A stretch of DNA of 64,000 nt from a virus: IMG/VR virus record IMGVR_UViG_3300024348_000028, positions 1 to 64,000 of that record. One strand, 5' to 3'. Shown here one piece after another: positions 7,951 to 28,329 of this stretch. The notes under the pieces are model-generated. The model saw only the letters and a program-made list of their open reading frames with translations. It ran no database searches and was not told the DNA's origin. Position numbers and translations under genes: made by a program. Within the stretch, counting starts at the first letter, position 1, and each line of letters begins with the position of its first letter.

Positions 7951-8340
7951 TCAAAGAATTTCAATATGCTTTTTGATAAATTTAGCAATATCCTTAAAAG
8001 TATACTGCTTATCATAATCTCCATCATTCAAACCAGACAGATTAATACCGTCAACCCAACCCTTATTGCTTGACATTCCAGCCCACTCTTTAACAACAAC
8101 AGGAAGATAGTCAGTTTGATTACCGTATTGAAAGCAAGCAAAGTTTTTGTTTCCATTATATTTTGGATTAGTAATCTTGATAGACTTCTTTTTCTTTTGC
8201 TTACGATCCTTGTCATATAAATCACAAAGAACTCCAAGACAACAGAAACAATCATTATCATTTCTAAGGGCACACTTACCCTGCTTATAGTCACCAGATT
8301 CAAGAGCCTTAATCCACATATTTGCAATCTTTTTATCCAT
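7951..8340 (-). CDS. conserved phage hypothetical with CCLGVLCDL motif, 129 aa
   Basis: Begins MDKKIANMWIKALESGDYKQGKCALRNDND and then has CFCCLGVLCDLYD. This W-x-ALxSG-Y-Q-G / CCLGVLCDL pattern recurs in uncharacterised phage proteins across many tailed phages. The cysteine cluster (four Cys in about eleven residues, counting the one in GKCAL separately) could bind metal. The C-terminal half (YTFKDIAKFIKKHIEIL) looks like an amphipathic helix. It is placed directly upstream of the RNA polymerase. Function is not known. Confidence 0.85.
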   Translation of the reverse strand: MDKKIANMWIKALESGDYKQGKCALRNDNDCFCCLGVLCDLYDKDRKQKKKKSIKITNPKYNGNKNFACFQYGNQTDYLPVVVKEWAGMSSNKGWVDGINLSGLNDGDYDKQYTFKDIAKFIKKHIEIL

Positions 8341-8394
8341 ATATCACCTTCATAATGCGTTATAGGTATGCGCATCCCACCATCAAATTAATGA

Positions 8395-9402
8395 TTAGAC
8401 AAGAGTGAGAGCGTGACGGAAAACCTTCATAGTATCATCCTGAGTAAGTCCTGCAAGGTTATCCCATGCACGATTCTCAGGCTTTGCCACGCGACCTCTA
8501 GCAGCAGTACGATGCTGTATAAACTTGCTAACAGCATTAGCAGCCATCCAGATACTAGCTCTACTCTTAGTCTCATCCCTTTCACGGTCAAAGGTTTCAG
8601 ACCAATTAGACACAGCCTTTAGAGCATTGTCGTAATTATTCTGTTCATGTCCATTGCTTGGATTAGAAACAATAGGAGCCTCAATCATACCCCAAACATC
8701 CATCCAGAACTTCTGAATATCATTCTTGGTAAGTTCACGGCTTGCAAGAGTATTAACAGTCTCACGGAAGAACTTACCACTAGACTTGAATTCACGAAGT
8801 GCTTCACGCATTGCATCCTTCTTGTCTTCCATAGTAGAACCCTTGTGAGTAATTCTAAACATATTCTTTCCACGGCGAGCCTTGGCAATTGCCATGCTAA
8901 GAGTATTCTGACAAACAATACGAACACTTGTTGGCAAGGCAGAGAAAGCAATACTACCATCATGGCTATTGATTAGACCCATGTATTCCGTAACAGTATC
9001 GCCACTAGAGCCAGCAACATCAAAGGTATCACCACGAAGAAGAAGAACAACCTTGCGACCATTCTTAAGACTAAGCGCAGACTCAACCTTAACATCATTA
9101 CTAAGTTCATAAGCCATCTCAAAGTGTTCCTTGTTCTGAATCACCTGATAATCAGCTGACTGAACACTAAGAATTTCTTTCGTGTCTTCACGAATAAGAG
9201 CAGCGTAATCAGTACTAAACACATCATCACAGTCAGGAATACTAGCCTTAATGAAAGAAGACTTGTAAACATTCCAGTCAAGACCAGCAGCACTAAGTGC
9301 ATCATTTGGCGACATATCAGAATCAACAACAGTACCAAGACGATGCCAAGCAGCAACGCGGTTAAACACAGCAGTATCCTTTTCCATAATCTCGTGAGCC
9401 AT
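8395..9402 (-). CDS. DUF932 / TIGR03299 phage-plasmid-like protein
   Basis: A 335-residue protein matching the DUF932 pattern: MAHEI...AAWHRLGT at the N-terminus, AGLDWNVYKSSF, DYQVIQNKEHFE near residue 90, LINSHDGSIAF with SVRIVCQNTLSMA near 150-170, and a basic C-terminal half (KFIQHRTAARGRVAKPENR). The family is widespread in phages and plasmids and has no agreed biochemical role; a link to DNA metabolism or recombination is often suggested. It is the first medium-sized gene behind the tRNA cluster. I am sure of the family and not of the role. Confidence 0.9.
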   Translation of the reverse strand: MAHEIMEKDTAVFNRVAAWHRLGTVVDSDMSPNDALSAAGLDWNVYKSSFIKASIPDCDDVFSTDYAALIREDTKEILSVQSADYQVIQNKEHFEMAYELSNDVKVESALSLKNGRKVVLLLRGDTFDVAGSSGDTVTEYMGLINSHDGSIAFSALPTSVRIVCQNTLSMAIAKARRGKNMFRITHKGSTMEDKKDAMREALREFKSSGKFFRETVNTLASRELTKNDIQKFWMDVWGMIEAPIVSNPSNGHEQNNYDNALKAVSNWSETFDRERDETKSRASIWMAANAVSKFIQHRTAARGRVAKPENRAWDNLAGLTQDDTMKVFRHALTLV

Positions 9403-9435
9403 TATAGCACACCTTTCTGCATCAACAGATGCTAA

Positions 9436-9567
9436 TTAGTAATCAGAACGATCACGAACTTTGAAATCTTCTTTAATACGATCTCTTTTTTGTTTGCCCC
9501 AACCTTTATTTTGTTCTTTCTTTTTATATTTATATCTGTCTTTATCTTTGTTTCTACTTTGTTTCAT
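9436..9567 (-). CDS. small Lys/Arg-rich protein, 43 aa
   Basis: A very short gene: ATG at 9567 preceded by a GGAG Shine-Dalgarno and ending in TAA at 9436. The product begins MKQSRNKDKDRYKYKKKEQN and nearly half of its residues are Lys, Arg or Asp. It starts 15 bases after the 3' end of the tRNA-Glu gene, so it is presumably made from the tRNA-containing transcript. Such charged peptides are common among early phage genes, but no family is recognisable. The ribosome site and absence of any other feature in the interval support it. Confidence 0.6.
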   Translation of the reverse strand: MKQSRNKDKDRYKYKKKEQNKGWGKQKRDRIKEDFKVRDRSDY

Positions 9568-9581
9568 ATAAACTCCAATAG

Positions 9582-9654
9582 TGAGGCTACGGAGATTCGA
9601 ACTCCGGTCAAGAGGATGAAAGCCTCCTATCCTAGACCACTAGACGATAGCCCC
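9582..9654 (-). tRNA. tRNA-Glu (UUC)
   Basis: Full cloverleaf on the minus strand: acceptor GGGGCTA/TAGCCTC (one G-U pair), anticodon stem GGAGG/CCTCT closing the loop CTTTCAT with anticodon TTC, T-arm loop TTCGAAT, discriminator A. The 3' CCA is not encoded. It reads GAA and GAG, frequent codons in this AT-rich genome. Only four bases separate it from tRNA-Leu upstream, so the two are processed from one precursor. Confidence 0.93.
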
Positions 9655-9658
9655 AACA

Positions 9659-9731
9659 TGACCAAGGTGGGATTCGAACCCACACTACAAACATTTTAAG
9701 TGTCTTGACTCTGCCGTTGGTCTACTTGGCC
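9659..9731 (-). tRNA. tRNA-Leu (UAA) with a short variable loop
   Basis: Acceptor GGCCAAG/CTTGGTC, D stem GAC/GTC, anticodon stem AGACA/TGTTT around loop CTTAAAA (anticodon TAA, reading UUA), T stem GTGGG/CCCAC with loop TTCGAAT, discriminator A, 73 nt. The variable region is only five bases (GTAGT), whereas bacterial tRNA-Leu normally carries a long variable arm of ten or more bases. Identity is therefore deduced from the anticodon and the A73 discriminator; charging with leucine is likely but not proven. Confidence 0.85.
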
Positions 9732-9738
9732 GCAGTAT

Positions 9739-9918
9739 TTAAATCTTACCATCAAACAAATCATCAAGCTTCTTAATAATTTTATCTTGTTTTTTTGCAG
9801 TAGTTTTCTTTTTATTCTTTTTCTTACCAAAAATTTCTTCGTAATTCTTATCGTACTGCTCTTTGTTAATAGGACGATATCGACTACCTTTACCACCCTG
9901 CCATTGTCCACTACCCAT
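9739..9918 (-). CDS. small basic protein, 59 aa
   Basis: Starts at the ATG at 9918 (MGSGQWQGGKGSRYRPINKE) because AAGGAGAT lies just upstream; the frame is open further back but without a ribosome site. The N-terminus GGKGSRYRP is followed by a Lys-rich stretch (GKKKNKKKTTAKKQDKI) and an acidic end LDDLFDGKI. The opening resembles a short conserved motif in phage mini-proteins (GKGSxxRP), of unknown function. It lies between the Leu and Arg tRNA genes. Confidence 0.75.
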   Translation of the reverse strand: MGSGQWQGGKGSRYRPINKEQYDKNYEEIFGKKKNKKKTTAKKQDKIIKKLDDLFDGKI

Positions 9919-9922
9919 TATA

Positions 9923-10090
9923 TCACATCTCCTTGCGCTTGTCAAGCTTCTTTACTTCGTAATTATCTGGATGAACAGTATGACTTCTACGCCACTTATC
10001 GGCCTCTTTATCAGATTCCCAATAAGCAATGTCGTTTTTATTTTCCATCATCCAATCTTTTAAATTTTTACACCATAGACCATATTTCAT
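9923..10090 (-). CDS. hypothetical protein, 55 aa
   Basis: Reads MKYGLWCKNLKDWMMENKND and continues IAYWESDKEADKWRRSHTV to a TGA at 9923. It is rich in Trp and charged residues, probably a small helical protein. The start follows the tRNA-Arg 3' end by only four bases and the nearest purine-rich site (AGGAA) lies within the tRNA acceptor, so its translation may depend on whether the tRNA is cut out. The stop lies five bases upstream of the next start. Family not recognised. Confidence 0.65.
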   Translation of the reverse strand: MKYGLWCKNLKDWMMENKNDIAYWESDKEADKWRRSHTVHPDNYEVKKLDKRKEM

Positions 10091-10094
10091 AAAG

Positions 10095-10168
10095 CGTTCC
10101 TGAATGGAATCGAACCATTAGCCTTAGCATTAGAAGTGCCACGCTCTATCCAATTGAGCTACAGGAAC
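10095..10168 (-). tRNA. tRNA-Arg (UCU)
   Basis: Acceptor GTTCCTG/CAGGAAC, D stem GCTC/GAGC, anticodon stem TGGCA/TGCTA with loop CTTCTAA (anticodon TCT), T stem AATGG/CCATT with loop TTCGATT, discriminator G, no encoded CCA, 74 nt. It reads AGA/AGG, which are favoured arginine codons in AT-rich phage genes and often rare in hosts. Confidence 0.95.
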
Positions 10169-10175
10169 ACATAAA

Positions 10176-10571
10176 TCAATTACCCTTGTATGGAGGAGTA
10201 GACTGAACAAAACCATTCAACTCCTTCATAACGGATTGATAAATTGTAGTCACAGCATTGCAAAGACGCTCATCAATAGTAGACTTAATCAGATCATTAA
10301 TATAACGCATATCGTTACTATTAATAGGACTATTGTTCTGCTTAAGTTCTTCAAGCTTATCACCAACAACATCGTTAACCATAGTCTCGACTTCAGAAAG
10401 AATATCTTCCTTCATGTCTGAGATATTAGAATCACACATCTGCTCAGTCTCATAACGAATGTTATCAATCTCATCCTTAAAATCACTACGCTCGGTTTCA
10501 ATCTTTTCATCAATAAGATCACCGACAGTATCCTTAATCAGTTCATCAAGCTGTTCTGCAAAAGTACTCAT
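10176..10571 (-). CDS. acidic coiled-coil-like hypothetical protein, 131 aa
   Basis: Highly acidic helical protein (MSTFAEQLDELIKDTVGDLIDEKIETE). Heptad-like spacing of Leu/Ile/Val through about residues 1-85 suggests a coiled coil, then an Asn-rich break (KQNNSPINSNDM) and a second helix. There is no cysteine cluster or membrane segment. It sits alone between tRNA-Arg and tRNA-Ile with its own purine-rich upstream site. I do not recognise a family; small acidic early proteins often bind host factors, which is only a possibility here. Confidence 0.75.
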   Translation of the reverse strand: MSTFAEQLDELIKDTVGDLIDEKIETERSDFKDEIDNIRYETEQMCDSNISDMKEDILSEVETMVNDVVGDKLEELKQNNSPINSNDMRYINDLIKSTIDERLCNAVTTIYQSVMKELNGFVQSTPPYKGN

Positions 10572-10612
10572 TACACTTTCCTTTCAAATAGAATTAAATA
10601 ACGAAACAATAG

Positions 10613-10686
10613 TAGGGGTGGTGGGACTCGAACCCACATGTACGCGATTATAAGTCACGGCCTTCCTCCAGTTCAGGCACACCCCA
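10613..10686 (-). tRNA. tRNA-Ile (UAU)
   Basis: Anticodon stem CGTGA/TCGCG around loop CTTATAA gives anticodon TAT, reading AUA. The T stem GTGGG/CCCAC with loop TTCGAGT is canonical and the D loop keeps a GG pair. The acceptor pairs as GGGGTG/CACCCC plus a T-T mismatch at the end pair 1-72, and the D stem is only three pairs, so it is slightly degenerate. A UAU anticodon is unusual because bacteria normally read AUA with a lysidine-modified CAU tRNA. Confidence 0.85.
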
Positions 10687-10691
10687 GTAAA

Positions 10692-11024
10692 TCAAGGCTC
10701 TCTAGCATTATCTTTAGCGTACTTGTGACATGCTTCGGAAATGTTGATAGCGAACGCCGAATCAAAGGATTCTATTGGCTTGACTATTGCATTTTCATCA
10801 GCATCGTATTCAATAATAGACACATCTGATACATCAACATCACCAAGTTCCCATTCCCAATCTTCATGGACACCTGTAGCACCATAGTAATCATACCAAC
10901 CAATACCATTATCTACATGATACCAGAATTCAAGGGATCTAAAGTTAACTAAGTAATCAACACAATTAATATTAATATTGATTTCTTCATAGTCTCTAAA
11001 TAACTCTTTCATAAGATTCTCCAT
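10692..11024 (-). CDS. acidic hypothetical protein, 110 aa
   Basis: Begins MENLMKELFRDYEEINININ and is dominated by Asp, Glu and aromatic residues (WYDYYGATGVHEDWEWELGDVDVSDVS), which gives a strongly negative surface of the kind seen in DNA-mimic or inhibitor proteins. No catalytic motif is visible. It lies between the Ile and Lys tRNA genes, starting four bases after the Lys tRNA. The gene call is reasonable from length and composition; the mimic idea is inference. Confidence 0.7.
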   Translation of the reverse strand: MENLMKELFRDYEEINININCVDYLVNFRSLEFWYHVDNGIGWYDYYGATGVHEDWEWELGDVDVSDVSIIEYDADENAIVKPIESFDSAFAINISEACHKYAKDNAREP

Positions 11025-11027
11025 AAG

Positions 11028-11100
11028 TGCCCCCTGTAGGGATCGAACCTACGACCTATTGATTAAAAGTCAACTGCTCTACCAACTGAGCTAAGAGGGC
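11028..11100 (-). tRNA. tRNA-Lys (UUU)
   Basis: Acceptor GCCCTCT/AGGGGGC, D arm GCTC/GAGC, anticodon stem TTGA/TCAA with loop CTTTTAA (anticodon TTT), T loop TTCGATC, discriminator A, 73 nt, no encoded CCA. Reads AAA and AAG, abundant in the basic phage proteins. Confidence 0.96.
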
Positions 11101-11111
11101 GAGTATTGTGG

Positions 11112-11139
11112 TCCCTATCAGTAGCCCCAACTTTAGGGA
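11112..11139 (-). promoter_or_regulatory. hairpin with GTTGGGGCTA loop before tRNA-Lys
   Basis: On the minus strand TCCCTA pairs with TAGGGA around a loop containing GTTGGGGCTACTGA. The stop codon of the 58-aa gene (TAA at 11133-11135) is inside the first arm. It is the second copy of the element at 4184-4216, here between a coding gene and tRNA-Lys, so it could be a processing signal that frees the tRNA. Confidence 0.6.
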
Positions 11140-11309
11140 TAGAAACCAATCAGATTACCGTCTTTATTCTCAAGCCAAGCCTTAAAATTAAAAGCGTCTG
11201 ACTCATCTTCAAAGGCATCAATAACCTCGACATTATTCGAACCGTTACCATAAGAACGGCGGACCTCATACCATCCAGTATTAACCTTCATAACATAGTA
11301 ATTAATCAT
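11133..11309 (-). CDS. hypothetical protein, 58 aa
   Basis: Reads MINYYVMKVNTGWYEVRRSY and ends KDGNLIGFYP. The first ATG (11309) overlaps the stop of the upstream gene and has AAGGA upstream; a second in-frame ATG lies six codons later. The pattern WYEVRRS...AFEDESDAFNFKAWLEN looks like a small alpha/beta protein. No family recognised. The overlap with its neighbour supports real translation. Confidence 0.65.
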   Translation of the reverse strand: MINYYVMKVNTGWYEVRRSYGNGSNNVEVIDAFEDESDAFNFKAWLENKDGNLIGFYP

Positions 11310-11469
11310 TGATCATTTCCTTCATGTCAAACATAAAATCTTCGGGGGACTTACCAAGAAGATAATAGTGGTGCGGCATAAACTGAGCAACATCTTCCCA
11401 AACAAGAGCATCATCAAGTAACATCATATCTAGACGATGAACCCAATCAACATACTTGATATCCATCAT
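11302..11469 (-). CDS. hypothetical protein, 55 aa
   Basis: Starts at ATG 11469 (MMDIKYVDWVHRLDMML), chosen because AAGG lies five bases upstream; the longer frame to 11493 lacks a site. The product is acidic, helical and rich in Met and aromatics (WEDVAQFMPHHYYLLGKSPEDFMFDM). It overlaps both neighbours by 8 and 23 bases, part of the chained small-gene array. Function unknown. Confidence 0.65.
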   Translation of the reverse strand: MMDIKYVDWVHRLDMMLLDDALVWEDVAQFMPHHYYLLGKSPEDFMFDMKEMIND

Positions 11470-11626
11470 CTGAACCTTCTTCCTTAAAAGCATTAAGCAA
11501 ATTAAAATATGCCTCTCCCCTTTCAGTTACACTATAATAATCAACACCATCCTCATCCCAACTAACAGAAACAAGATCATTAATAACAAGCCAATCAAGA
11601 GCATCATTAAGTTCAGCTTCAGACAT
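11447..11626 (-). CDS. hypothetical winged-helix-like small protein, 59 aa
   Basis: Reads MSEAELNDALDWLVINDLVS then VSWDEDGVDYYSVTERGEAYF. The pattern of a helix followed by a DGVDYYSVTERG beta hairpin and a last helix resembles the recognition part of winged-helix DNA-binding proteins (the T-x-x-G wing), though it is too short and divergent for a firm call. It ends inside the next gene in another frame. Confidence 0.6.
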   Translation of the reverse strand: MSEAELNDALDWLVINDLVSVSWDEDGVDYYSVTERGEAYFNLLNAFKEEGSDDGYQVC

Positions 11627-14164: not shown

Positions 14165-14200
14165 TATAGTCCTCCTAAAAAAAGAAAAGAACAGAGTAAG

Positions 14201-14336
14201 TTCAATCGTGGGGTGGAATCGAACCACCCAATGCTTATAATTTGTTACAGCAAACTAGGAAAGTAATCTTGGTATTATTCTAGTGTCTGTAAACACTAGC
14301 GATTATTTCCAGCATTTCATCTCCGACACGATTGAA
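14201..14336 (-). ncRNA. tRNA-like domain with long internal insertion
   Basis: A canonical T arm (GGTGG/CCACC around TTCGATT) runs directly into the strand CACGATTGAA, whose perfect ten-base partner TTCAATCGTG lies 136 bases upstream rather than the usual 73. Between them are the hairpin CTAGTGT/ACACTAG, a TAAT/ATTA hairpin, and TTTG/CAAA around CTGTAA. A D stem is not recognisable. This is therefore not a standard tRNA; it resembles the tRNA half of tmRNA in lacking a D stem, though no tag frame or G3-U70 pair is seen. Confidence 0.6.
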
Positions 14337-14514
14337 GATACTCTGCAAGTGTATCGTAGGGGATTCTCCCGAAAGAGAATCCCGTGGCGAACCACTTGCC
14401 TACCTAGGTTATGGACTGCAAGTATACCTAGTACCCTACATGTGTCTCCTTTGTATAGGTGTAGTTGCTATACAACATATGTGGTTATCTAATAGGCTAC
14501 CACGCGAAATGCCT

Positions 14515-14549
14515 AAAGATATCCATAAGATATTTCACCTATGGATACC
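14515..14549 (-). repeat. GAAAUAU-loop hairpin, copy 3
   Basis: Minus strand arms GGTATCCATA and TATGGATATC (ten pairs, one G-U) enclose a loop GGTGAAATATCT. It is nearly identical to copy 4 at 15541-15575. Confidence 0.65.
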
Positions 14550-14783
14550 CGATCTGTTCCTATATATTATTCAGATGGAACAACTCTGGTATGCACTACT
14601 CTGCATAACTGAGTTGACAATAGTTATTGTATTGTTGCCTTGGGTTATCATCCTGCTGCAACCGCAGAAATGAATCACCAATACAACAACCATCATCAAT
14701 AAGACTCCAATAGTATCAGTCAATACTATTGGACGCACTATGCCTAACTTCTATTTATACTCGCATAGTCGAGTTGTTAGAAA

Positions 14784-14818
14784 CATTCCCATGATATTAT
14801 ATTTCTACCATGAGAATG
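14784..14818 (-). repeat. GAAAUAU-loop hairpin, copy 1
   Basis: Minus strand arms CATTCTCATG and CATGGGAATG (ten pairs, one U-G) enclose a loop beginning GTAGAAATAT. A seven-base helix at 14771-14777 with 14833-14839 encloses the whole hairpin. Confidence 0.6.
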
Positions 14819-14847
14819 TAGAGAGTTACGTGACAACTCACAAGAAA

Positions 14848-14877
14848 CACTCCCATGATATTTCTACCATGAGAATG
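14848..14877 (-). repeat. GAAAUAU-loop hairpin, copy 2
   Basis: Same arms as copy 1 with one base change that leaves a T-G pair (CATTCTCATG with CATGGGAGTG) and a loop GTAGAAATAT. The change preserves pairing on the transcribed strand. Confidence 0.6.
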
Positions 14878-14890
14878 CGGGAGAGATCAG

Positions 14891-14980
14891 TTATCCAAGT
14901 TTGTTTACATTGTGCAATGCAACACAAGTAATAACAATACAAGTAACAACAACTAAAGCAATTGCAAGAAGCTCAAACAT
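14891..14980 (-). CDS. tiny membrane protein, 29 aa
   Basis: ATG at 14980 with AGAGG upstream, overlapping the end of the preceding gene. It reads MFELLAIALVVVTCIVITCV then ALHNVNKLG. Residues 3-22 form one hydrophobic membrane span with a short hydrophilic tail. Single-span peptides of this size are frequent among early phage genes. The ribosome site and overlap make it plausible, but the short length leaves doubt. Confidence 0.5.
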   Translation of the reverse strand: MFELLAIALVVVTCIVITCVALHNVNKLG

Positions 14981-15350
14981 TCTCAAACCTCTGAACCTTC
15001 TTCATCAGAGCACGATTCAACATCTGCTCGATTTCAAGACTTGCCTGCAAATCCTTAACAGTATCCTGCAAAGACTTGACAGTATAGCGAAGTTCCTTCA
15101 ACTCAGTATCAGTCAGATCAACACCTGCAATGTCCTTCCAGTTCATACTGTTTTCCTTTATAGTTTCAGGTTCAATAACCTTGGGGTCATACCAACGCTC
15201 ACCACAACACTCACAGAAATCTGTACTAAACCATTCTTGCTTCTTTAGTTCAGCCCAAGCATCATCTACAGATTCAGCACGAACAACAAACTCAACCGGG
15301 CCTTCATAATAGCCGCCGCTATTGTTCTGAACAAACTTATAGGTGTTCAT
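14973..15350 (-). CDS. hypothetical protein with CxCC motif, 125 aa
   Basis: Starts MNTYKFVQNNSGGYYEGPVE at 15350 with AAAGG nine bases upstream; the open frame extends to 15497 but that part is probably a structured leader. An N-terminal alpha/beta segment (FVVRAESVDDAWAELKKQEWF) is followed by FCECCGERWYDP, a possible zinc knuckle, and a C-terminal coiled coil (LTDTELKELRYTVKSLQDTVKDLQASLEIEQML). Proteins with AESxDDAW...CCGxRW are recurrent in phages, without known function. A perfect CCGGC-TAT-GCCGG hairpin lies just upstream of the ribosome site and may control initiation. Confidence 0.75.
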   Translation of the reverse strand: MNTYKFVQNNSGGYYEGPVEFVVRAESVDDAWAELKKQEWFSTDFCECCGERWYDPKVIEPETIKENSMNWKDIAGVDLTDTELKELRYTVKSLQDTVKDLQASLEIEQMLNRALMKKVQRFENV

Positions 15351-15540
15351 GTGCAAACCTTTCCCGGCATAGCCGGATAAGAGAGTGTGGTTTATGTCTA
15401 CAGTTATTCCATAAGGAATAGTTAGAGTCCTTACACAAGACCCAACATTACAAGGTTCACCACAAACCCTAGTTACTTCTACAATCCCAAGGCACACAAA
15501 GAGGGTGCTACTTGTTGCAGAGATAGTAACTATTCAACTA

Positions 15541-15575
15541 AAAGATATCCATAGGATATTTCACCCATGAATACC
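15541..15575 (-). repeat. GAAAUAU-loop hairpin, copy 4
   Basis: Arms GGTATTCAT and ATGGATATC pair with G-U replacements relative to copy 3; the loop contains GGTGAAATATCC. The stem differences keep pairing on the minus strand RNA. Confidence 0.65.
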
Positions 15576-15795
15576 AATATCAGGGAGGATTCTCTGGTTT
15601 GTCGTATCTGGTGAATAGAGTAACGCGGTCCGTGCATATAAGAACCATTGATTATTGAGGGGTCGTTATTTGCACCACATAGCGAGTCTATCCAATACGG
15701 GTCGCTTCCACAATCCTGCCTAGTTACTTGGGGTAACAACTCCTGCCCGTCTATTCTCCAATACTGAAATGGAGGGCATGACCTACAGTACAGGG

Positions 15796-15829
15796 AAAGA
15801 TATCCAATGGTTATTCACCAATGGATACC
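15796..15829 (-). repeat. GAAAUAU-loop hairpin family, copy 5 (divergent)
   Basis: Arms GGTATCCA and TGGATATC enclose a loop beginning TTGGTGAATAACC. The stem and the GGTGAA start of the loop are kept while the rest differs; TGGT and ACCA can extend pairing inside the loop. Confidence 0.55.
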
Positions 15830-17700: not shown

Positions 17701-20700
17701 TTACTGATTATTGGACATGTCTTTCAATAGGTTGGCCAAGTCTGTAGATACACCTTTATTATTGGTATATGTTATTGGTCTTTGTATTGAATTCTTTCTA
17801 TCTTGTAAGAACTTGTTGGTTTCTTCTAGGTATCTAGCTCTATTATCCTTTAGTTTGTTTTCGATTTCTCTAGACTGAACTGGGACAATATTATGATTAC
17901 TAGCAACATTCTCAGGTTTATTAATATACTTATTCTTTCCTTTTTGGATAAGCTTAAGGTATTTATTTAATGAGTTGTTTTCATCAATTACTTCTAGTTC
18001 TTGTAATAACCTAGCTGGTACTGCAACTGGGCTTTTATTGAATGTAATGTTATAAGGAATAATATCACCGAACTTGGCAATCATTTCTTCCTTAGACATT
18101 TCACCACCCTTAGCTAATAATTCCTTACCAGAACCCATTGCCTTGCTTACATAAGCATTGAGTACACTAAAGGCTGGAGGAGAAACTGGGTTTGAGAATC
18201 CCTTGTAGGTTCCTCCAGTTAGTTCTGAGAAGGTAGCTAGCGTTCCTGAGAATAGGCCGGATAGAGAACCAAAGACTGGGAGTGTACTGGCCATTCTAAA
18301 TACTGATGTACTTGGGTCTTTTAACTCTTCCTTAATATCTTTAACATCTCTGCCATTTAACCAATCTATTATAAGTTCAGACATATATGTTAAAGCTGAG
18401 TATAGAATAACTATTTCAGCTAGAACAACTGTTGGTTTCTTTAGCTGTAGGTTTTCAAGTACACCGCTTTTGAATGATTGTGACCATTGCAATAGCGATC
18501 TAATAAATCTACCAATACCAGTTTTAGAGGTAATTGAAATATCTTTATTTAATCCTCTTGATTCTGAAATTAAACCATCAGTTGAGATCTGTGTTTCAAG
18601 TGCGTATACAAAATCACTAAAGGCTTCATCTAATACTTCTTTTGGAATAGGACCAATGGGGCCAGTCATATAAGCATCTACCTTTGCTTGTAGTGCTGTT
18701 AGATTAAAGACTCCATTCTTGTTAGTTCCTGTTTGTTCCATGATATACTTTAGTGCCTTTAACTTATCAGCATCTAGTAATCTAAATCTCATAAAAGTTA
18801 AAGCATGATCCCAGTTACCACCAAACCCAGCTTCTCTAGCTAGTTTCTTTTGAAGAGCTGCTAATTGTCTATCTGCCTTTTCTGAAGTAATAGATAATGC
18901 TTGTAGTCTTTCTAGTTCTGCTTTATTGGCTGGATTTTCCATTAATGCCAACAGTCTTAAAGCAGCTCCGCTTACAATATACTTAGCATTTCTTTGTGTA
19001 AATCTTCCTAGTGCAAAGTGTTTTGAAATACCAGTAATATACTTTACTGAACCAACTTCTACACCAAGATTACCTATTGTTTCAAGAGCAGCTGTTAGTT
19101 TATTGCTATCTTCTCTTGTCTTAGTCAATCTTTTCCACCAACTATCATTTAAAGATGGAACACCTGAAACGGAGTTTGTTTGTAAATATCTATCTTCAAT
19201 TTCAGAAAGATAACTACGAATTCCGTGTACGGTTAAGAATGCTTGTTGTTTTAATGCTTCTGATGGTCTTCTATCTAAGAACATCTTAAATACACCAAAC
19301 GCATTATTTATAGTTTCTTTAATACCAACTTCTGGTAGTGCTGTAATAACATTGATAAAGGATTCAGCAGTGCTGCGAAGACCCCAACCTTGACCTGATG
19401 TTGCTCTTAGAATACCACCAGCAGATCTACTAAGTTGTTCTCCTGTTTCACCGTATGCAGACATAATGCGGGGATTTCTACCAGCATATTCAGCATAATC
19501 TTCAGCTAGTCTTTTCATACCACCTTGAAGATCTTTCTGTAGTGATTCATTTGATCCAGCCATTCTCATTAGTAGTTTACTGGCTGCATCAAATAGTTCA
19601 TAGATACGAACACCCTTTACACCAAGCATTCTATCTAGTTCTGCTTGTACCAATAATTCAAAGCCTCTATGATTAATTAGATTATCATAAGCAGCTAGTG
19701 GATTGGTTCTGATAATATCTTTTATTAGAGGACTATTAAATACTTCCTTCCAATCAAGATTCTTAACAGCAAATCCTTGATTATCTCCACCCTTACCAAA
19801 TAATTGTAAGAATGCGTTATCACCCATTTCTGGCTTTTGAATATATCTATGGTAATTACCTTCTCTTAATTTAAAGGCTAGTAGTTCTTCCATCATAACT
19901 TGAAGAACTGGTTTTGTATTACCAAAGTTAGCCTTCCATTGATCTGCAATGTGAGTAGTAACTCCATCTACTGTTTCCATATATCTAGCCAAATCTCTTG
20001 GACTTAGATCGTCTACCTTTTCTGGAATAGCGCAGATTACAATTTGACCTGTTGCTGGATCTTCATAAGAGAAGAACTTAGTATCAGCTTCTCTTCTAAT
20101 TTCAGGAATCTTCTTAAGATCAGTACCGGGAGCATATCGTCTATTACCAGCCTTAGCCTCTAGTCTTGAAAGAGTATCAGCATCAAAACCAGTCTCTCCA
20201 ATATGTAGTTGATCTCTACCTTCCTTACCACGGCTTGTTAATGGGTTTGATTCTGTATCCCATAACCAACCCATAGCAAGCATAATACTACGATCTAATG
20301 TTTCATCGTTTCTAATAGTATCTTTTCTTACTCTAACCATTTCATCAACGATTTGAGTACGATCATTCTTAGTTACTTTATCACGATCAAATGTTAGTGC
20401 AAAGTAGTTTTCAGCTGGAACTGGATTACCAGCGTCATCCTTAATACTAATCCATTCAGTAGAATTTTCTAGATCTAGGATGAACTTATTTCTACGAATT
20501 GTTTCATCTCTTAGATTCTTTGCTGAAGTAAAGACAGCATCAATGTATGCTGGTTGAGCAGATGAGTTAATAGCAAGAACTGCTGTTTGAATATCTGCTC
20601 TTTGTAGTGGTCGTTTAGTTGATACTAAAGATTTAACAATTTCTAGTTCAACTGCTTGCATTACTCGTAGATCTCCTGTTTGAATAGCAAGATCTCTGTT

Positions 20701-23700
20701 TAATGTAATCAAAGCTCTCTTTGATCTTTGAACCTGATTAGCAACGCCTTCCCAAGTTTTAAATGCGTGTGTACCAGACTTTACTAACTGGTGTGTCATT
20801 ACTTTTCCGTTTTCTGCCATTGAAGAAAGCCATCGTAGTAGGTTGTTCATACTACGAAGAGTTTTGCCTTCACCAGTAGCAAATGAGGTAAGACCAGACA
20901 TCCAACTTAGTGTTTTTCTAAATGCGTTTCTATTTGTCTTTTCAGATCCTCTAAACAAACTAGCAATCCAGTTAGTAGATCTAAATACTTCTGTATGCTC
21001 TGTTGCTAGGTTATTTAAGAAGTTAATTAAGATACCTTGTGTTGGTGGTAGCTTTTCTGGTTCTATATCAATTAGTACACCTAAACCTAAATCTCTTTTA
21101 GCGGATTCAATATCTACTTTTACTTTTGCTCCAGCATAAGTTTGTGCTGCATAACTACCCTTTTTCATTCTAACTTTATCAGGATAGTTTAGTGTAATGT
21201 TATCTGCACTAAATACAAAGTCATGTGGAGATGGTGGTCTAGTAAATTCTGGTAAATCTGTGCCATATCTTGCGTTATAAGACGCAATAGCTTGATCAGT
21301 CTTTGCTTTTGCAAAGTCTAGAATTTGATCCATAGTCTTTACTGAGATTTGTTCAGTTGGAGTACTTCTTGCATCTAGTTCTTTTGCAATTTCAATATCA
21401 TAGTATGACCAGAAAATATTATTAATTGTTTCAAATCTAGTACCAAACTTTTCTTGATTAATATTAGAAATTGTTGAATAGATGTTATATACTTTATCTA
21501 AGAAGTGTAAGAATTGATCTGGAATTGTTTCGATCTTCTTACCAAGATTTTCTCTTAATCCAGAAGTAATTCTATGGAAGTTAAGTAGTAGAATCTTAAC
21601 AAACTTAGGATCTGTTCCAGAGTTTCTAAGTAAAGATTCTCCAGCCATCATCTGAGCATCAAACTTATCTACATCATTAAGAACAACTGTTTCAGCTTTT
21701 CCTGCTTTAATCTTTGGATCAGTAGCTGGTGTTCTACCAGTCTTTGGGTCCATATCAACAGGAAGTTTTTCTGGATTAACTACTGGCTTATCTATAATAA
21801 CTTTTGGATCGTCAGCTACAGGAGGTTCTGTTGGTTTTCTTATTACTGGTAGTCTACTAGTTGTATCAAGCGTTGTTTCTTTCTTAACTACACCTTCTTT
21901 AGTTGGAACAACAGCTACAGTTTTTTCTTTTTTCATAAAGCTAACTAAATCAATATTTTGTTCTTTTAAAATATCAATTAGTGTTGTTTCTGGTGTTTCA
22001 GATTCTTTTACAATAGAAATTAAAATATCTTTTTCTAAACCAAAATCAGAAAATCGTTCTTCTGGTGTTGCTTCTAAAGCAGAGATAATATCTGGTTTAT
22101 CTAAAACTAAAGTTAATGTTCTAGTAGTACTTTTAACCTTTGTTGTACTTACAAAAATTGGTTCAGTTTTATCTGCTGATACAGTTACTTTATCTTCTGG
22201 TAATAGTACAGAACCACCTTTAATTGAATCATCTTTAGTTTCACCAGAAACAAACATAACAGTTTCTCCAACTTCAGTTTTAACTTCTGGCATTGCTACT
22301 GGAAGTTCAGTTGTTTGTTTTGAAACAGCGGCTTCAATATTAGTTCTAATTTTTCTAGATGCTTCTAGTTTTGCTCTAGCTTCTTCTAATGAAACAACCT
22401 TTGGTTTTTCTTCACCACTAAGAATAGCATCAGACTTTTTGGCAATTATTGCTTTTGCTGTTTCTGTAATATTTTCAGTTAAAGATGTTGGTCTTACTTC
22501 GTCATTAACAAGTTTAATTTCCCCATCAATTTGCTGTACTTGTTTTCTTAAAGCAGCCTTAGCATTCATTACTTGTTTATCAGTAATTCCAAGTAGTTTT
22601 GCAATACCCTTATCAGTTATTTCTGGATTATTTTGTTTAGCAATTAGATACTTAGAAACTATATCCTTTACACTTGGAGATAGTGTTGTTTGTGTAACAA
22701 TAGAAAGAACATTTTCTGCTTGTTCTTTAGAAATTGGTTTACTACTTTCAACCGCTATTCTTGCATCAGGAATATCAATCTCTTTTCCATCTTCTCTAAC
22801 AAGACCATAAGAAACTTTTTGTGCTTTGCGCTTTTGTTTTACCGCAGCTTCTTTTGCTACATTATTAGCAAAACCAAAAGCATAATTAAACTTTTCTTTT
22901 TCTGTAGTCATCTGAGACAAGGCAGCATTAACCTTATCTCTATTCATAAGAATTTTTTCAATGACTTTTTGTACTAGGTCTTCTACAGATTCTGTTTTAA
23001 TACCACTCCAGTTATCTTTTAAATACTTTCTAATACTAGCACCAAGTTTTGTTTTTGCTGTTACTTTTAGACCGGATACTCCAGCTTCTCTTTCTTTTTT
23101 AGTAGATACTGTTTTAGTTACAACCTCTCCAATCATAGTTACAAAGGTATCAGCATCTTTAATTTGACCGATGTCTTCTGTTATGTATGTATCAGGAATT
23201 TTAACTTCTTCTTGTTTTTCTGGAATCTTTGCCATAAGTTTTTCACGAAGAGCGTTAAACTTTGTTTCTTGATTAGCAACAAGCTTAGGGTTTCCTTCTC
23301 TAACTATAACTGTACCGCGAGAAACAATCTTTCCATCTTTACGAACAACTGGAGCAATAGTTTTTACTATATATGGTTCTTCGCTTGCTTGACCTTCAAC
23401 ATATGGTTCAAACATAAGTACTTCAACTTCACTTTGTCCATCAAGATAAGGTTTACCAGTTAAGTCATCAATATATTCTCCTTCTTTAAGAGAAGCCTTA
23501 ACTTGTTCCATTTGTGACTTAAATTTTTTTGGTTTCTCTGGTACTTCTACAACCTTTTCAACTAGCTTTCTTTCTTTCTTAATCTTCTTTTTCTTTTCAT
23601 CAACAAGAAGACCAGATAGTGCTTTAGCAAATCCATCAATATCTGGATTTTCTTTTGCTGCGTTTAATAGCTGTGCTTCAAATGCTTTATCTGTTTCAAG

Positions 23701-26700
23701 ACGCTGGAAAACTGGTTGTAGGCTAAATACCTTACCTACTTCTGTGTCTTTCATGTAAGTTTCTAGTAAATACTTAATAATACTATTTTCGGTAGTTGTG
23801 TCTAATAAAGCATTTATAAGAGTATCAAAATCTTTAATACCATGTGGTTGGTTTGGGTTTCTAGATAATTTGGTTACTATTATATTATCATTAAATACAA
23901 ATTCTCTTGCAAATCTTTCTTCAATACCGGATAGAATTAAGTTTTCTGTGCTTTGATATAACTTGTGATCAATAGTAATTCCAGTATACTCTGCAATATT
24001 ATTTAATACATCCTCAAAGAAAGTAAACTGAGTTAGGTATTGTCCAGCTATAGTTTGTGTTGTTTCGTATGCTTTATCTACAAAGAAACTACCAATTTTA
24101 TTTTGTAAAACTTCAGTAGCTTCTTTATCGTTTTTAATTCGTTTTAAAAAGTCTACAATACTATTAACATTCCTATACATTTCAGCCATAGTAATGTTTT
24201 CTTCAAACAAAGATGGTAAAACAAAGGCAATAGATTTTGCTTTATATCTATCTGAAAGATCGGATAATTCTATAAAGTTTTTTATAAAGTCTGATGTGTC
24301 GTTTGTAGTGAGTTTTTCTCCTGTTGGAACAAACATTTTATAGTAATTTGCTTGTAATAGTTCTTGTACTTTATCTGGAATTAACCAATAAGATAATGCT
24401 AGTAAGTTTGTATAATAATCATCTTTATATGTAATAACATCTTTTATTAAATCTTTAATATCAGAGTCTACAAAATTACTTAAGCTTTCTACCTGTTCTC
24501 TACTTAATGTACCATCGTATAATCTTGTTAATAACTTTCGTTGTACTTCTCTTACACTAGTAGCATCTAAAGTTGTTTCTGCAATTATATCAGCAAGTAA
24601 TTTAGATGGTTTATCAACCGATGCTTTTTCCATTAAAGTTTCAAAAATAGAATCTATATAACTAGTGTAAGAAATACCATCAAAAGTTTTTCCAAGATTT
24701 TGTGCTAATCTTGTTTGAACTTGGAATGAGTGTAATCCTAAAGAAGCTGCATTAGTAACAGTTCTATAATCAATTTCATCAGCTGTTTCAATTAAACCAT
24801 TAATAATATTATCTAGATCATTAAATTCTGATTTTCTTATAATATTAGATAGTTTACCCCATACATCTTTAATAAACTTAAAGAATGGACTCATTACTCT
24901 TGTAAGTAAGCTTTGGTTTTCTAGTTTAGAAATAGCCTCAACTGATTTAGAGTATACAAGGCTTTCAAACATATTAGCAAAAAATTCTGCTACATTTCCA
25001 AAAGAATAAACAAAATTACCGTTTAAATTTCCCTTTTCAAATACTGCGTTATCAAGATCAGTAAAGAATCTTACTAAATCAAAATCTACATAATCTGAGT
25101 ATGCTTTATATAATTCTATTTGTTGATCAATATCTAATACGAATGAGTAGATATGACCCAATTCGTGTAAAGCAACTTTAGTTATTAGATGTGCTGTTTG
25201 GTTTGGTGTTAAAGAACCAGCTTCAGCTCCTTTTAATATTTCATTAACAAATACAGAAAAACCAAATTTAACTTCTCTTACACCAGCATCCTGTAGTGCT
25301 TCACCATAGACACCACTTTCACCAATTCTTTCTAAATAAGTTACTAGTTTAGTTGGATTTAGTTTTAGATTAGCAATAGCAGAAGCAATTAACTTTACTG
25401 TTTTTTCTTTAAGTTCTTTTGCAGCTTTAATATCAGTATGTGGGAAACTATTATCAAAATATTTTTGTAATACTTTTTCAAAATAATTTATAAGCTTTTC
25501 ATGTTCTGGTGAAATTTTCTTAGCAAAAGAAATATCTGTAAATGCTTTTTGTGCTTTCTTTGTTTGAGCAGCATTTAATGATCTTGGTTTAGTCTTTCGA
25601 TTAGCAAGAATAGCATTTTCTTTTTGCTTTAGTTTTCTAACTAATGGAGAATCTGTGTCTTTAACCTTTAGTGTTTCAGTTGGTTTTTCTTTACCAAAAA
25701 GATATTCACTTAATGCTTTTCTAAACTTTCTATTAAGATTCTTTTCTTCGTTAATACGACGATCAAAATCTTCTCTTGAAACATCTTTATATTTTTCAGC
25801 TAGTTCTAAGAATTGAGTTTTCTTTTCATTGCTTAAAGTAGAGAAGCCTTTGTTTTCTTTTCCAATTAGATCTCGTTCTAGTTTTTGTAAATCAGCAATG
25901 TGTCGATTTAAGTTTATTTCTTGATCTGTAAACCAAGTAGAGTCTTTGGCTGTTCTTCCACTTTCTTTTAATTGCTTAAGAACATCTAAAGATCTTGTTG
26001 CAAGTTCTTTTATTTTTCTAATCTTCAAATAAGGTTTTGGTTCAGCTTGAATAGTTTTAATATCTTCAGCTGTTGCTACAACTCTTAACCAATCCTTTTC
26101 ATCTTTTATTTGATTAGCATCAATAGATCTCTTACCGTAATCTAAAGTACTTTCTCCAGTAACCTTATTAAAGATTGGAGACTCTGGAGCAGAACCCAGC
26201 TTACCTGCTCTACCGTCTTCTTTAATTGTAGCAGAGTCAGCTGCTTTTTCAGCATCGCTAGCAATTCGTTCTAGTCTAGTAGGAGCTTCCCCAGTAACTG
26301 GAGGTAATCCTTCTACCTCAACAGCTCTAATCTTAGCTTCATCTAAACTTAGTTTTGGTATTTCATAGATACCATCTTCTCTTCTAATATATACATTTTC
26401 AATAGTGTTTTGTTTTGCTGTTTCATCTATCTTTCTAATTTCGTCTTCTCTAAACTTATACTTAGTACCTTCAATATCAAGGTCTATTGTTCTAACGCCT
26501 TCTACTGCTGGTACGGCTGTAATTGGATCTACTTTAGTTTCTTCAACAGCTAATGTAGCAGTTTCAATGATAGCATCTTTTGTAAGTGGGGTTGGGCTGG
26601 TAACAACAGCATCAGTTCCTTCTGGTGTTTCTAAACGAGCAACGCCAGTTTCATCTGTTTTCTTAAATAGTTTATTCTTTAATTTACCAAGTCCCTGAGT

Positions 26701-28329
26701 TGCGCCGTATAAACTTGTTCCAAATAGGAAACCTACAGTACCAGCAATAGCTAATTCTTTTTTAGAATACTCAAATTCATGGTCTGTTTGAAGACCAGTC
26801 ATTGACATAGCTATTCTTGTTGTTTGGTCCTTTGCGCTTGCAATTGTATTTAATACAGCACCGGAACCACCGATATAACTAAGTCTTTTTAAATGACCCA
26901 TCTTTTGCATAAAGCTTGGTAGTTCACCTGTTGCAAAGGCGGTACTAATACTAAGTCCCTTTTGTATAGTCTGTAATGATTTTTGTAATCTAATTGCTTT
27001 ATTAGTATAACCAGCTGCCTTTAGTGCTGCAAGTCCACCCTTTGCTGCTGTTCCAAAACCAGCAGTAGCTACTGTGGCTGCAATACCAATTCCAAGGTCT
27101 GGATCGTTAATTGCTGTAGTAAAGAAATCGGCAGCAAAACCAATAACATCACCAGCAAAGTTATCAAATAATATACTATCTTTTTGGTATGCTTCTACTT
27201 TTTCTTTAAGAGTTGATTTAAATACCTTATCCTGTAATATAAATAAAGCATGATCCTTATTGTTTGTTCCAATAAAATCAATACCATCAACACCCTTTTT
27301 TGATAAAGTTTCTTTTACTTCTTTTGGTAGATTAAGTTGATTAAACCACTTTGCTCCATCAAAGTTTGGATCTTTTTTATCAATAAGCGTTTTAAGATCG
27401 TCCGCAATTGATCCAACTCCCTGTTCAAAAATATCAAAGCCGCTGTTATATTTTGCTAAAGATAATTGAATTGCTGATTGTTTAGCATATTCATCGTCTA
27501 AGTTATTTTTATATAGTGGGTTGTCAAATGCGGTATCAACCAAAGCACCAACAAGAGCGTTACCAGATAGATAACCACCTTCAGCTTGTGTAGATAACAT
27601 CCATCTACTAATTGAACCAGCATCTATAAATGCTTTGTTTCTTTCCTTAAACTGCTCTAGTGTCATTGGTTCTGGTACTACATGTGATGGAATTTCTTTA
27701 CCATCATACTTAATATCTACACCACCACTAGATGACCATGCTAGCTTGCCTTCTGCTGTTTTTGGAACACCTTCTTCATAGTAAGCAACTGGTTCATTAT
27801 CATTACCAAGATTTACTTTAACAGCTTGCTTTGCTGCTTTAATTTGATTTAAATAATCATTATAATCCTTTTCAACCTGATCCATGTTTTCAATTAATGG
27901 ATTTTGAATCTTGAAATAAGGACCACTCCAATAGCCTCTCTTTGCTCTCTCTAAAGCAAATCTATCTACATCTCTGCCCAAGAAACCAGAACCAGCTCCT
28001 CCAGTTAATAAATAGTTTGCTTTTCTAAATTCCCAAAAATCATCATTGTTTGGTTTTTTAGTTGACCAATTTTCCTTTGAACTAATAGCCTGTAGATTAG
28101 TATCAGGCATTACACCATAACGCTCTGCTTCAGCTCCTTCTAGTGTATTAAAAGTAAATGGGGCTGTTAAGGTTTGCCAGTTATTAAAGAAAGATCTACC
28201 AAACATTACTGGAGCAGTTGCTGTAAAGTAAAGTTCTGGTAGTTCTTGTTCTGGTTTATAGTTAACACTTGGACCTAGTTGAAAATTAAAATTATTTAAA
28301 CCATCAATGTTGATTTTTTCTGTACTCAT
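17701..28329 (-). CDS. giant virion (ejection-type) protein, 3542 aa
   Basis: Last and largest gene of the virion block, in the place of T7 gp16, so probably packed in the head and ejected with the DNA. The start at 28329 has AAAGGTAAC upstream. Parts visible: a hydrophobic Ala/Gly segment near residues 395-445 (GFAADFFTTAINDPD...AAT); an HExxH metallopeptidase motif, ALHELGHIYSF, near residue 1055; Lys/Glu-rich linkers; an ECF-sigma-like unit near residues 1760-1930 (DLVQKVIEKI and NNVAKEAAVKQKRKA, then the helix-turn-helix-like GIAKLLGITDKQVMNAKAALRK); a Thr/Val/Lys-rich linker to about 2190; and a long helical C-terminal part with AGGILRATSGQGWGLR near 2960 and a membrane-like segment VVLAEIVILYSALTYMSELI near 3320. 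I considered an N4-type virion RNA polymerase, but none of its motifs are present. The virion role is inferred from position and size. Confidence 0.85.
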   Translation of the reverse strand: MSTEKINIDGLNNFNFQLGPSVNYKPEQELPELYFTATAPVMFGRSFFNNWQTLTAPFTFNTLEGAEAERYGVMPDTNLQAISSKENWSTKKPNNDDFWEFRKANYLLTGGAGSGFLGRDVDRFALERAKRGYWSGPYFKIQNPLIENMDQVEKDYNDYLNQIKAAKQAVKVNLGNDNEPVAYYEEGVPKTAEGKLAWSSSGGVDIKYDGKEIPSHVVPEPMTLEQFKERNKAFIDAGSISRWMLSTQAEGGYLSGNALVGALVDTAFDNPLYKNNLDDEYAKQSAIQLSLAKYNSGFDIFEQGVGSIADDLKTLIDKKDPNFDGAKWFNQLNLPKEVKETLSKKGVDGIDFIGTNNKDHALFILQDKVFKSTLKEKVEAYQKDSILFDNFAGDVIGFAADFFTTAINDPDLGIGIAATVATAGFGTAAKGGLAALKAAGYTNKAIRLQKSLQTIQKGLSISTAFATGELPSFMQKMGHLKRLSYIGGSGAVLNTIASAKDQTTRIAMSMTGLQTDHEFEYSKKELAIAGTVGFLFGTSLYGATQGLGKLKNKLFKKTDETGVARLETPEGTDAVVTSPTPLTKDAIIETATLAVEETKVDPITAVPAVEGVRTIDLDIEGTKYKFREDEIRKIDETAKQNTIENVYIRREDGIYEIPKLSLDEAKIRAVEVEGLPPVTGEAPTRLERIASDAEKAADSATIKEDGRAGKLGSAPESPIFNKVTGESTLDYGKRSIDANQIKDEKDWLRVVATAEDIKTIQAEPKPYLKIRKIKELATRSLDVLKQLKESGRTAKDSTWFTDQEINLNRHIADLQKLERDLIGKENKGFSTLSNEKKTQFLELAEKYKDVSREDFDRRINEEKNLNRKFRKALSEYLFGKEKPTETLKVKDTDSPLVRKLKQKENAILANRKTKPRSLNAAQTKKAQKAFTDISFAKKISPEHEKLINYFEKVLQKYFDNSFPHTDIKAAKELKEKTVKLIASAIANLKLNPTKLVTYLERIGESGVYGEALQDAGVREVKFGFSVFVNEILKGAEAGSLTPNQTAHLITKVALHELGHIYSFVLDIDQQIELYKAYSDYVDFDLVRFFTDLDNAVFEKGNLNGNFVYSFGNVAEFFANMFESLVYSKSVEAISKLENQSLLTRVMSPFFKFIKDVWGKLSNIIRKSEFNDLDNIINGLIETADEIDYRTVTNAASLGLHSFQVQTRLAQNLGKTFDGISYTSYIDSIFETLMEKASVDKPSKLLADIIAETTLDATSVREVQRKLLTRLYDGTLSREQVESLSNFVDSDIKDLIKDVITYKDDYYTNLLALSYWLIPDKVQELLQANYYKMFVPTGEKLTTNDTSDFIKNFIELSDLSDRYKAKSIAFVLPSLFEENITMAEMYRNVNSIVDFLKRIKNDKEATEVLQNKIGSFFVDKAYETTQTIAGQYLTQFTFFEDVLNNIAEYTGITIDHKLYQSTENLILSGIEERFAREFVFNDNIIVTKLSRNPNQPHGIKDFDTLINALLDTTTENSIIKYLLETYMKDTEVGKVFSLQPVFQRLETDKAFEAQLLNAAKENPDIDGFAKALSGLLVDEKKKKIKKERKLVEKVVEVPEKPKKFKSQMEQVKASLKEGEYIDDLTGKPYLDGQSEVEVLMFEPYVEGQASEEPYIVKTIAPVVRKDGKIVSRGTVIVREGNPKLVANQETKFNALREKLMAKIPEKQEEVKIPDTYITEDIGQIKDADTFVTMIGEVVTKTVSTKKEREAGVSGLKVTAKTKLGASIRKYLKDNWSGIKTESVEDLVQKVIEKILMNRDKVNAALSQMTTEKEKFNYAFGFANNVAKEAAVKQKRKAQKVSYGLVREDGKEIDIPDARIAVESSKPISKEQAENVLSIVTQTTLSPSVKDIVSKYLIAKQNNPEITDKGIAKLLGITDKQVMNAKAALRKQVQQIDGEIKLVNDEVRPTSLTENITETAKAIIAKKSDAILSGEEKPKVVSLEEARAKLEASRKIRTNIEAAVSKQTTELPVAMPEVKTEVGETVMFVSGETKDDSIKGGSVLLPEDKVTVSADKTEPIFVSTTKVKSTTRTLTLVLDKPDIISALEATPEERFSDFGLEKDILISIVKESETPETTLIDILKEQNIDLVSFMKKEKTVAVVPTKEGVVKKETTLDTTSRLPVIRKPTEPPVADDPKVIIDKPVVNPEKLPVDMDPKTGRTPATDPKIKAGKAETVVLNDVDKFDAQMMAGESLLRNSGTDPKFVKILLLNFHRITSGLRENLGKKIETIPDQFLHFLDKVYNIYSTISNINQEKFGTRFETINNIFWSYYDIEIAKELDARSTPTEQISVKTMDQILDFAKAKTDQAIASYNARYGTDLPEFTRPPSPHDFVFSADNITLNYPDKVRMKKGSYAAQTYAGAKVKVDIESAKRDLGLGVLIDIEPEKLPPTQGILINFLNNLATEHTEVFRSTNWIASLFRGSEKTNRNAFRKTLSWMSGLTSFATGEGKTLRSMNNLLRWLSSMAENGKVMTHQLVKSGTHAFKTWEGVANQVQRSKRALITLNRDLAIQTGDLRVMQAVELEIVKSLVSTKRPLQRADIQTAVLAINSSAQPAYIDAVFTSAKNLRDETIRRNKFILDLENSTEWISIKDDAGNPVPAENYFALTFDRDKVTKNDRTQIVDEMVRVRKDTIRNDETLDRSIMLAMGWLWDTESNPLTSRGKEGRDQLHIGETGFDADTLSRLEAKAGNRRYAPGTDLKKIPEIRREADTKFFSYEDPATGQIVICAIPEKVDDLSPRDLARYMETVDGVTTHIADQWKANFGNTKPVLQVMMEELLAFKLREGNYHRYIQKPEMGDNAFLQLFGKGGDNQGFAVKNLDWKEVFNSPLIKDIIRTNPLAAYDNLINHRGFELLVQAELDRMLGVKGVRIYELFDAASKLLMRMAGSNESLQKDLQGGMKRLAEDYAEYAGRNPRIMSAYGETGEQLSRSAGGILRATSGQGWGLRSTAESFINVITALPEVGIKETINNAFGVFKMFLDRRPSEALKQQAFLTVHGIRSYLSEIEDRYLQTNSVSGVPSLNDSWWKRLTKTREDSNKLTAALETIGNLGVEVGSVKYITGISKHFALGRFTQRNAKYIVSGAALRLLALMENPANKAELERLQALSITSEKADRQLAALQKKLAREAGFGGNWDHALTFMRFRLLDADKLKALKYIMEQTGTNKNGVFNLTALQAKVDAYMTGPIGPIPKEVLDEAFSDFVYALETQISTDGLISESRGLNKDISITSKTGIGRFIRSLLQWSQSFKSGVLENLQLKKPTVVLAEIVILYSALTYMSELIIDWLNGRDVKDIKEELKDPSTSVFRMASTLPVFGSLSGLFSGTLATFSELTGGTYKGFSNPVSPPAFSVLNAYVSKAMGSGKELLAKGGEMSKEEMIAKFGDIIPYNITFNKSPVAVPARLLQELEVIDENNSLNKYLKLIQKGKNKYINKPENVASNHNIVPVQSREIENKLKDNRARYLEETNKFLQDRKNSIQRPITYTNNKGVSTDLANLLKDMSNNQ

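Follow-up and report, generated by a model that had tools for sequence, protein, structure and literature searches.

Why should a phage genome carry one short RNA hairpin five times over in a single locus? The question is raised by IMG/VR record IMGVR_UViG_3300024348_000028, an uncultured virus of 65,843 bases, of which positions 1-64,000 (hereafter the window) were analysed. Five hairpins, HP1 to HP5, lie there at irregular spacings of 28 to about 670 nucleotides (nt), in DNA for which sequenced phages gave no match. The original prediction read them as an RNA element under selection and reused as a module, whose loop might bind a protein or bring RNA copies together. We find that selection on RNA and modular reuse hold up and that loop-loop contact does not, and that a Pistol ribozyme, the structured segments around it and the role of the hairpins as edges had been overlooked. 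The hairpins are selected as RNA, lie outside genes, are linked to a Pistol motif and bound segments that turn over among related phages. The answer that we favour, which we rate as close to an even call, is that they are punctuation forming or protecting RNA 3' ends, whose shared sequence also allows cassettes to be shuffled.

The terminase of this phage is nearest to those of T7-like phages (36-38% identity), a phage-type RNA polymerase is encoded in the record, and the minus strand is the gene strand, carrying all large structural genes identified. Relatives were collected from IMG/VR by protein and by pattern and are labelled with L or G and a number.

Results

The hairpins are selected as minus-strand RNA

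All five copies are present and fold as minus-strand RNA, the strand of every window feature described below, into hairpins of 12-14 base pairs (bp) with mostly uninterrupted stems and loops of 4-9 nt. Folding energies range from -15.0 to -17.8 kcal/mol (z scores -4.2 to -6.0), none of 200 shuffled sequences folded as well as the native hairpins, and plus-strand RNA folds worse in all five window copies (-5.2 to -10.6 kcal/mol). Two stem types can be told apart. The first, GGUAU...AUAUCUUU, starts with GGUAUYCAU, ends in GAUAUCUUU and comprises HP1 (14517-14550; 13 bp, tail UUUAGG), HP4 (15544-15575; 12 bp) and HP5 (15799-15829). The second, CAUUCUCAUG...CAUGGGARUG with the end UGUUUC, comprises HP2 (14783-14819; loop GAAAUAUAA) and HP3 (14847-14878; GAAA loop), both of 14 bp. 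The loop region GGU(A)GAAAUAUC is common to the two types, as is a tail rich in U; the register in which the loop pairs is not the same in the two. HP5 diverges at the loop, as had been noted, with the sequence GGUGAAUAACC and a shorter apex, GGU-GAAUA-ACC.

The covariation analysis that the original prediction had proposed was run on 19 HP1-type copies from eight phage records, aligned over a 13-pair stem. Standard pairs make up 93.3% of this alignment and 18 cells are changed on both sides, as against 38-56% and 1-6 cells when the pairing partners are slid by 1-3 columns, and the observed covariation score was reached by none of 500 shuffles. An alignment that excludes the window contains 25 double-sided changed cells, and the model built from it recovers HP1, HP4 and HP5 with expect values (E) of 1.3e-11, 3.3e-11 and 8.5e-11, the next match in the 64 kb having E 0.59. 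The most telling compensatory change is found in G007, where CCAUAGG/CCUAUGG has become CCGUGGG/CCCACGG. In addition, 23 copies folded singly contain 49 G-U pairs and only 4 A.C oppositions, each of which would be a G-U pair on the opposite strand. This strand bias is strong but not universal: three copies, from two records, give the better fold on the other strand, and a fourth is about equal on both. Because of the covariation and the excess of G-U over A.C, we conclude that selection acts on the hairpin as minus-strand RNA, in line with the original prediction; copies that are missing or unable to pair were looked for in close relatives, and the hairpins there were present and paired.

The hairpins lie outside genes in one locus

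A model search of the window and its relatives, as had also been proposed, recovered the hairpin in relatives. Strong matches to the HP1-type model occur in nine records, at one locus each and on the gene strand, and this locus lies, where visible, between the 3' end of a giant virion-protein gene and tRNA genes. Nine relatives have the HP3 type, and wherever its position was compared it was the same; bacterial genomes searched for the hairpin contained none. Not one of 32 copies from 11 records lies inside a convincing open reading frame (ORF), although one overlaps a mechanical ORF of 26 amino acids (aa). Hairpins are positioned either shortly 3' of stop codons or at the close of structured non-coding segments, and several begin 5-12 nt past a stop codon; HP5 does so at 5 nt and HP3 at 12 nt. 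HP2 stands directly upstream of a ribozyme, HP4 separates a non-coding segment (S5) from the leader of a 125-aa gene, and HP1 forms the 3' boundary of the ribozyme cassette. The claim that the hairpin is a reused module is thus upheld.

A Pistol ribozyme heads one hairpin-closed cassette

Between HP2 and HP1, at 14700-14774, lies a Pistol self-cleaving ribozyme (Rfam RF02679), with a score of 59.5 bits at a gathering threshold of 34.5. The match is full length (model positions 1-68) with zero non-standard pairs marked, and judged by its sequence it is a good and unremarkable representative of the family, predicted to cut between G and U near its 3' end. Behind the expected cut, up to HP1, follows about 150 nt of structured RNA (14551-14699) with a long helix, a hairpin and a probable H-type pseudoknot with an A-rich loop; the z score of 14551-14705 is -3.9 without HP1 and -5.0 with it. 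Counterparts of this RNA occur in L003, L004, L017 and L018.

Five records (the window, G001, G002, G005 and G006) carry these elements in one order: Pistol, structured RNA, GAUCGG, hairpin, UUU. Read by eye, the structured part ends in most of these records in an apparent H-type pseudoknot with an A-rich loop, and the two stems of the pseudoknot differ in sequence among records while their pairing remains possible. More distant Pistol phages (L022, L029 and L023/L025/L027) also end this RNA in a U-tailed hairpin, of other sequence, for example CAGUCUAUGGG-GAAA-CCUGUAGACUG-UCUUUC or a GC-rich hairpin ending UUUUUC, which indicates that what recurs is the hairpin at the 3' end, not its loop sequence. 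The Pistol subfamily was searched for in bacterial genomes and found in none.

Hairpins are the edges of exchanged segments

Comparison of relatives indicates what the hairpins bound. Segment 14517-14846 of the window is absent from L003, L004, L005, G006 and G020, in which HP3 is directly followed by TTT(C)AGGCATTTCGCG, a flank that the window reaches only past HP2, the Pistol cassette and HP1. In G021 the same flank comes after a different segment of ~150 nt, ending in the hairpin GGTATTCTATGGTGAAATATCCATAGAATATC and TTTAGGCATTTCGCG. The slot after HP3 is empty in some records and filled in others, in at least two ways that close with a hairpin; L009 and G022 have an additional insertion at this point, which lacks a second hairpin. 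The inter-hairpin content ahead of the 125-aa gene, or of its positional counterpart, varies as well: the window has S5 alone and L009 an S5-like segment, L004 adds a Pistol element to an S5-like segment, L003 has an S5-like segment, a 94-nt segment and a long Pistol cassette, G006 a short segment and Pistol, G021 the 94-nt segment only, and L005 two other segments.

Across seven genomes, which are related and thus not independent, 89 of 286 alignment ends fall in a hairpin or at most 5 nt from one, whereas places drawn at random gave 25.6 +/- 4.8 and, over 5000 trials, never more than 47; repeat homology pulls alignments to the hairpin edge, but the true break must nevertheless be nearby. In these relatives, hairpins are the edges of segments gained, lost or swapped.

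Discussion

We believe that these properties are best accommodated if each hairpin marks the 3' boundary of one unit, where the units comprise short mRNAs as well as structured non-coding RNAs. The stem and the U-rich tail directly following it would form or guard the 3' end, either by terminating transcription weakly or by halting 3'-exonucleases. Applied to the Pistol cassette, this would mean that the ribozyme generates the 5' end of an RNA of ~185 nt by cleavage and that HP1 closes its 3' end. Moreover, because all copies share sequence, they could act as homology patches, or crossover points, through which cassettes are gained, lost and swapped among related phages, and the locus would evolve by whole units. 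For 3'-end formation, the placement, the tail and the comparison with distant Pistol phages all point in this direction, and comparison of relatives suggests recombination at hairpins as the route of cassette turnover; the ribozyme is presumably active. TTT follows or overlaps the stem end in every aligned HP1-type copy, and U's follow the stem in all window copies.

Several observations weigh against this proposal. The U-tract is short, with 3-4 U in most copies, other hairpins of the genome have longer runs, and no more than two of the five, HP3 and HP4, satisfy a loose rule for terminators, which speaks against plain termination. The loop region is conserved beyond what a terminator needs. 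The setting in G007 argues against any role at a 3' end: there, the copy (L019 6414-6570) follows a promoter-like GGCGGTATATAAGTAGGG by ~20 nt, precedes a tRNA-like RNA with the T-arm ACGGUUCGACUCCGU (z -4.4), and lies within or caps a larger structured RNA, a position unsuited to a 3' end. The relatedness of the seven genomes behind the breakpoint counts also counts here.

The strongest competing explanation, which we regard as possible though unlikely, is that the hairpins are endoribonuclease sites, read by host RNase III or a phage enzyme, at which a polycistronic transcript is split. In T7, RNase III processes the transcript endonucleolytically (PMC4858673), and its sites are the nearest known system in placement, with hairpins between units on the transcribed strand. 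The T7-like terminase and the phage-type RNA polymerase would suit such a function, and an enzyme that reads sequence could account for the conserved loop region. However, T7 stems are longer and irregular and contain an internal loop, whereas the simple 12-14 bp stems described here have none and fall short of the 60-nt R1.1 substrate of T7; in addition, the hairpins are confined to one variable locus, and a candidate nuclease was not identified.

Rather less probable is that the hairpin switches neighbouring units in the manner of a regulon, through RNA contacts or through binding of a protein from phage or host. Conservation of GGU(A)GAAAUA across two stem types of differing stem sequence would be expected of such a site, but the pairing register of the loop is not the same in the two types, and the flanking units vary widely in content. 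The self-contact envisaged by the original prediction is not supported, as AUAU, the sole self-complementary piece of the loop, is not conserved and is replaced in several copies by AUAA, AUAC or ACAU. Protein binding to the conserved loop region could be part of a 3'-end role or of processing.

Two further proposals concern the cassettes themselves. It is improbable, in our view, that the locus is an exchangeable array of hairpin-closed structured RNA cassettes, one of them headed by Pistol, with processing or insertion machinery of its own that reads the hairpin; if true, the locus would be a dedicated cassette system for phage RNAs. Slightly more doubtful still is an action at the DNA level, in which the hairpin would serve, like the attC of integrons, for recombination or transposition, and each new cassette, consisting of RNA and hairpin, would be inserted behind a hairpin already present. 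Cassettes do enter directly behind a hairpin and end in one, and alignment breaks fall at hairpins. Yet the G-U pairs and compensatory changes indicate RNA, the attC core boxes RYYYAAC and GTTRRRY are absent by inspection from the stem bases (GGTATC...GATATC or GCATTC...GAGTGT), no linked recombinase was seen, although no systematic integrase search was made, and ordinary recombination between repeats of 20-35 nt suffices. CRISPR repeats are ruled out by the compensated stem variation and irregular spacings, mimicry of the 16S rRNA 690 loop (GGUGAAAU) by a mismatched stem register and the different HP2 and HP3, and GOLLD, ROOL or other Rfam RNAs because nothing besides Pistol and tRNAs matched at the gathering threshold.

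Together with the T7 sites, the nearest known systems are the promoter-early stem-loops (PeSLs) of T4-type phages (Arbiol et al., 2010; Comeau et al., 2014), and the hairpins lack one defining feature of each. By the account in PMC4503421, PeSLs are nearest in evolutionary behaviour, being short repeated stem-loops at the junctions of shuffled small cassettes in a variable region. In the same account, PeSLs are defined by an early promoter joined to the stem-loop, and none is attached here: on the minus strand of 14.4-15.9 kb, the only sigma-70-like site is a 9/12 match at 14448-14421 that is not beside a hairpin, and apart from the hairpins themselves no repeated sequence follows them. Measured against that description, the present case also differs in its T7-like phage, in the structured non-coding RNAs that make up several of its cassettes, with Pistol leading one, and in stems that covary around a fixed loop region. 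What is new here is a T7-like phage whose structured non-coding RNA units are divided by repeated boundary stem-loops; that such repeats bound the exchange of modules had been proposed for T4-type phages, and the modules in the present phage are non-coding RNAs.

Pistol ribozymes have been associated with phage DNA (PMC4604425), and the one between HP2 and HP1 fits the family consensus in full. Here the ribozyme recurs inside a hypervariable locus as the head of a structured RNA that ends in a repeated hairpin, and this hairpin stands outside the ribozyme. We know of no established role for Pistol ribozymes in phage DNA, and the maturing of a small phage RNA would be a concrete and testable reason for the presence of this one. 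A comparable case is that of the theta ribozymes next to phage tRNAs (PMC10879173), also self-cleaving, in a phage tRNA region and probably maturing a small RNA; however, these are hepatitis delta virus-like and cut at the tRNA 3' end, whereas the Pistol element lies upstream of a structured RNA that is not a tRNA.

Other features of the locus

The non-coding segment S5 (15576-15798), between HP5 and HP4, is homologous to inter-hairpin segments in L003, L004, L005 and L009. Its folding energy is within chance (z -0.9 by minimum free energy), and a long-range helix shows weak covariation, with pairs that change together in part, which is suggestive at five sequences. Positions 15576-15715 and their counterparts in the same four relatives share the fixed words CGCUAUG, ACCG and AUACGA and a mostly fixed ACCACAGAAUC. 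Downstream of HP4 lies the structured leader (15351-15543; z -2.2) of the 125-aa gene (DUF7296; 14973-15350), which is placed between hairpins and likely starts at 15350, not at the GTG at 15497; its upstream part is split off in L004 and L005.

Downstream of HP1, a further structured RNA (14180-14516; z -6.1) contains crossing helices and a T-arm-like hairpin and has counterparts in L003, L009 and L018. Within it, 14192-14345 is a tRNA-like element of ~150 nt in which 19-nt arms, CAGAGTATCTTCAATCGTG and CACGATTGAACTTACTCTG, flank a T-arm-like GGGTGGTTCGATTCCACCC, followed by TTCTTTTCTTTTTTT. The element is missing in L004, L005, G020, G021 and G022, and L009 and L018 carry another insert instead, whose closing stem differs but can also pair. 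At 14344-14407, conserved crossing helices (GUAG/CUAC and CAAGUG/CACUUG) surround the hairpin GUAGGCAAGUGGUUCGCCACGG...CCCUACGAUACACUUGC; a C-G pair of this pseudoknotted RNA has changed to U-A in L009. Rfam yielded only weak sub-threshold matches in the hairpin region beyond Pistol and tRNAs.

A structured RNA, CCGUUGCAACGG ... CAAUAGGAU ... hairpin ... AAACGC, is shared upstream of Pistol by L003 (9514-9630), L004 (9520-9630), L022 and L029, and in the latter two it had no Rfam match. Elsewhere in the window, a single ORF of 3542 aa (17701-28329), whose C-terminal 599 aa had no match in sequenced phages, is suggested by its place and size to encode a virion or ejection protein. A perfect sigma-70 promoter (TTGACA-17-TATAAT, extended -10) at 9945-9917 stands ahead of tRNA-Leu, tRNA-Glu and the phage RNA polymerase gene. 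Finally, a different phage, L030 (G012), has repeated intergenic hairpins of its own at 8164-11595 on the minus strand, TCCCCCTAGG-ATAAAA-CCTAGGGGGA-TTTCTTTATG and variants, which resemble true terminators.
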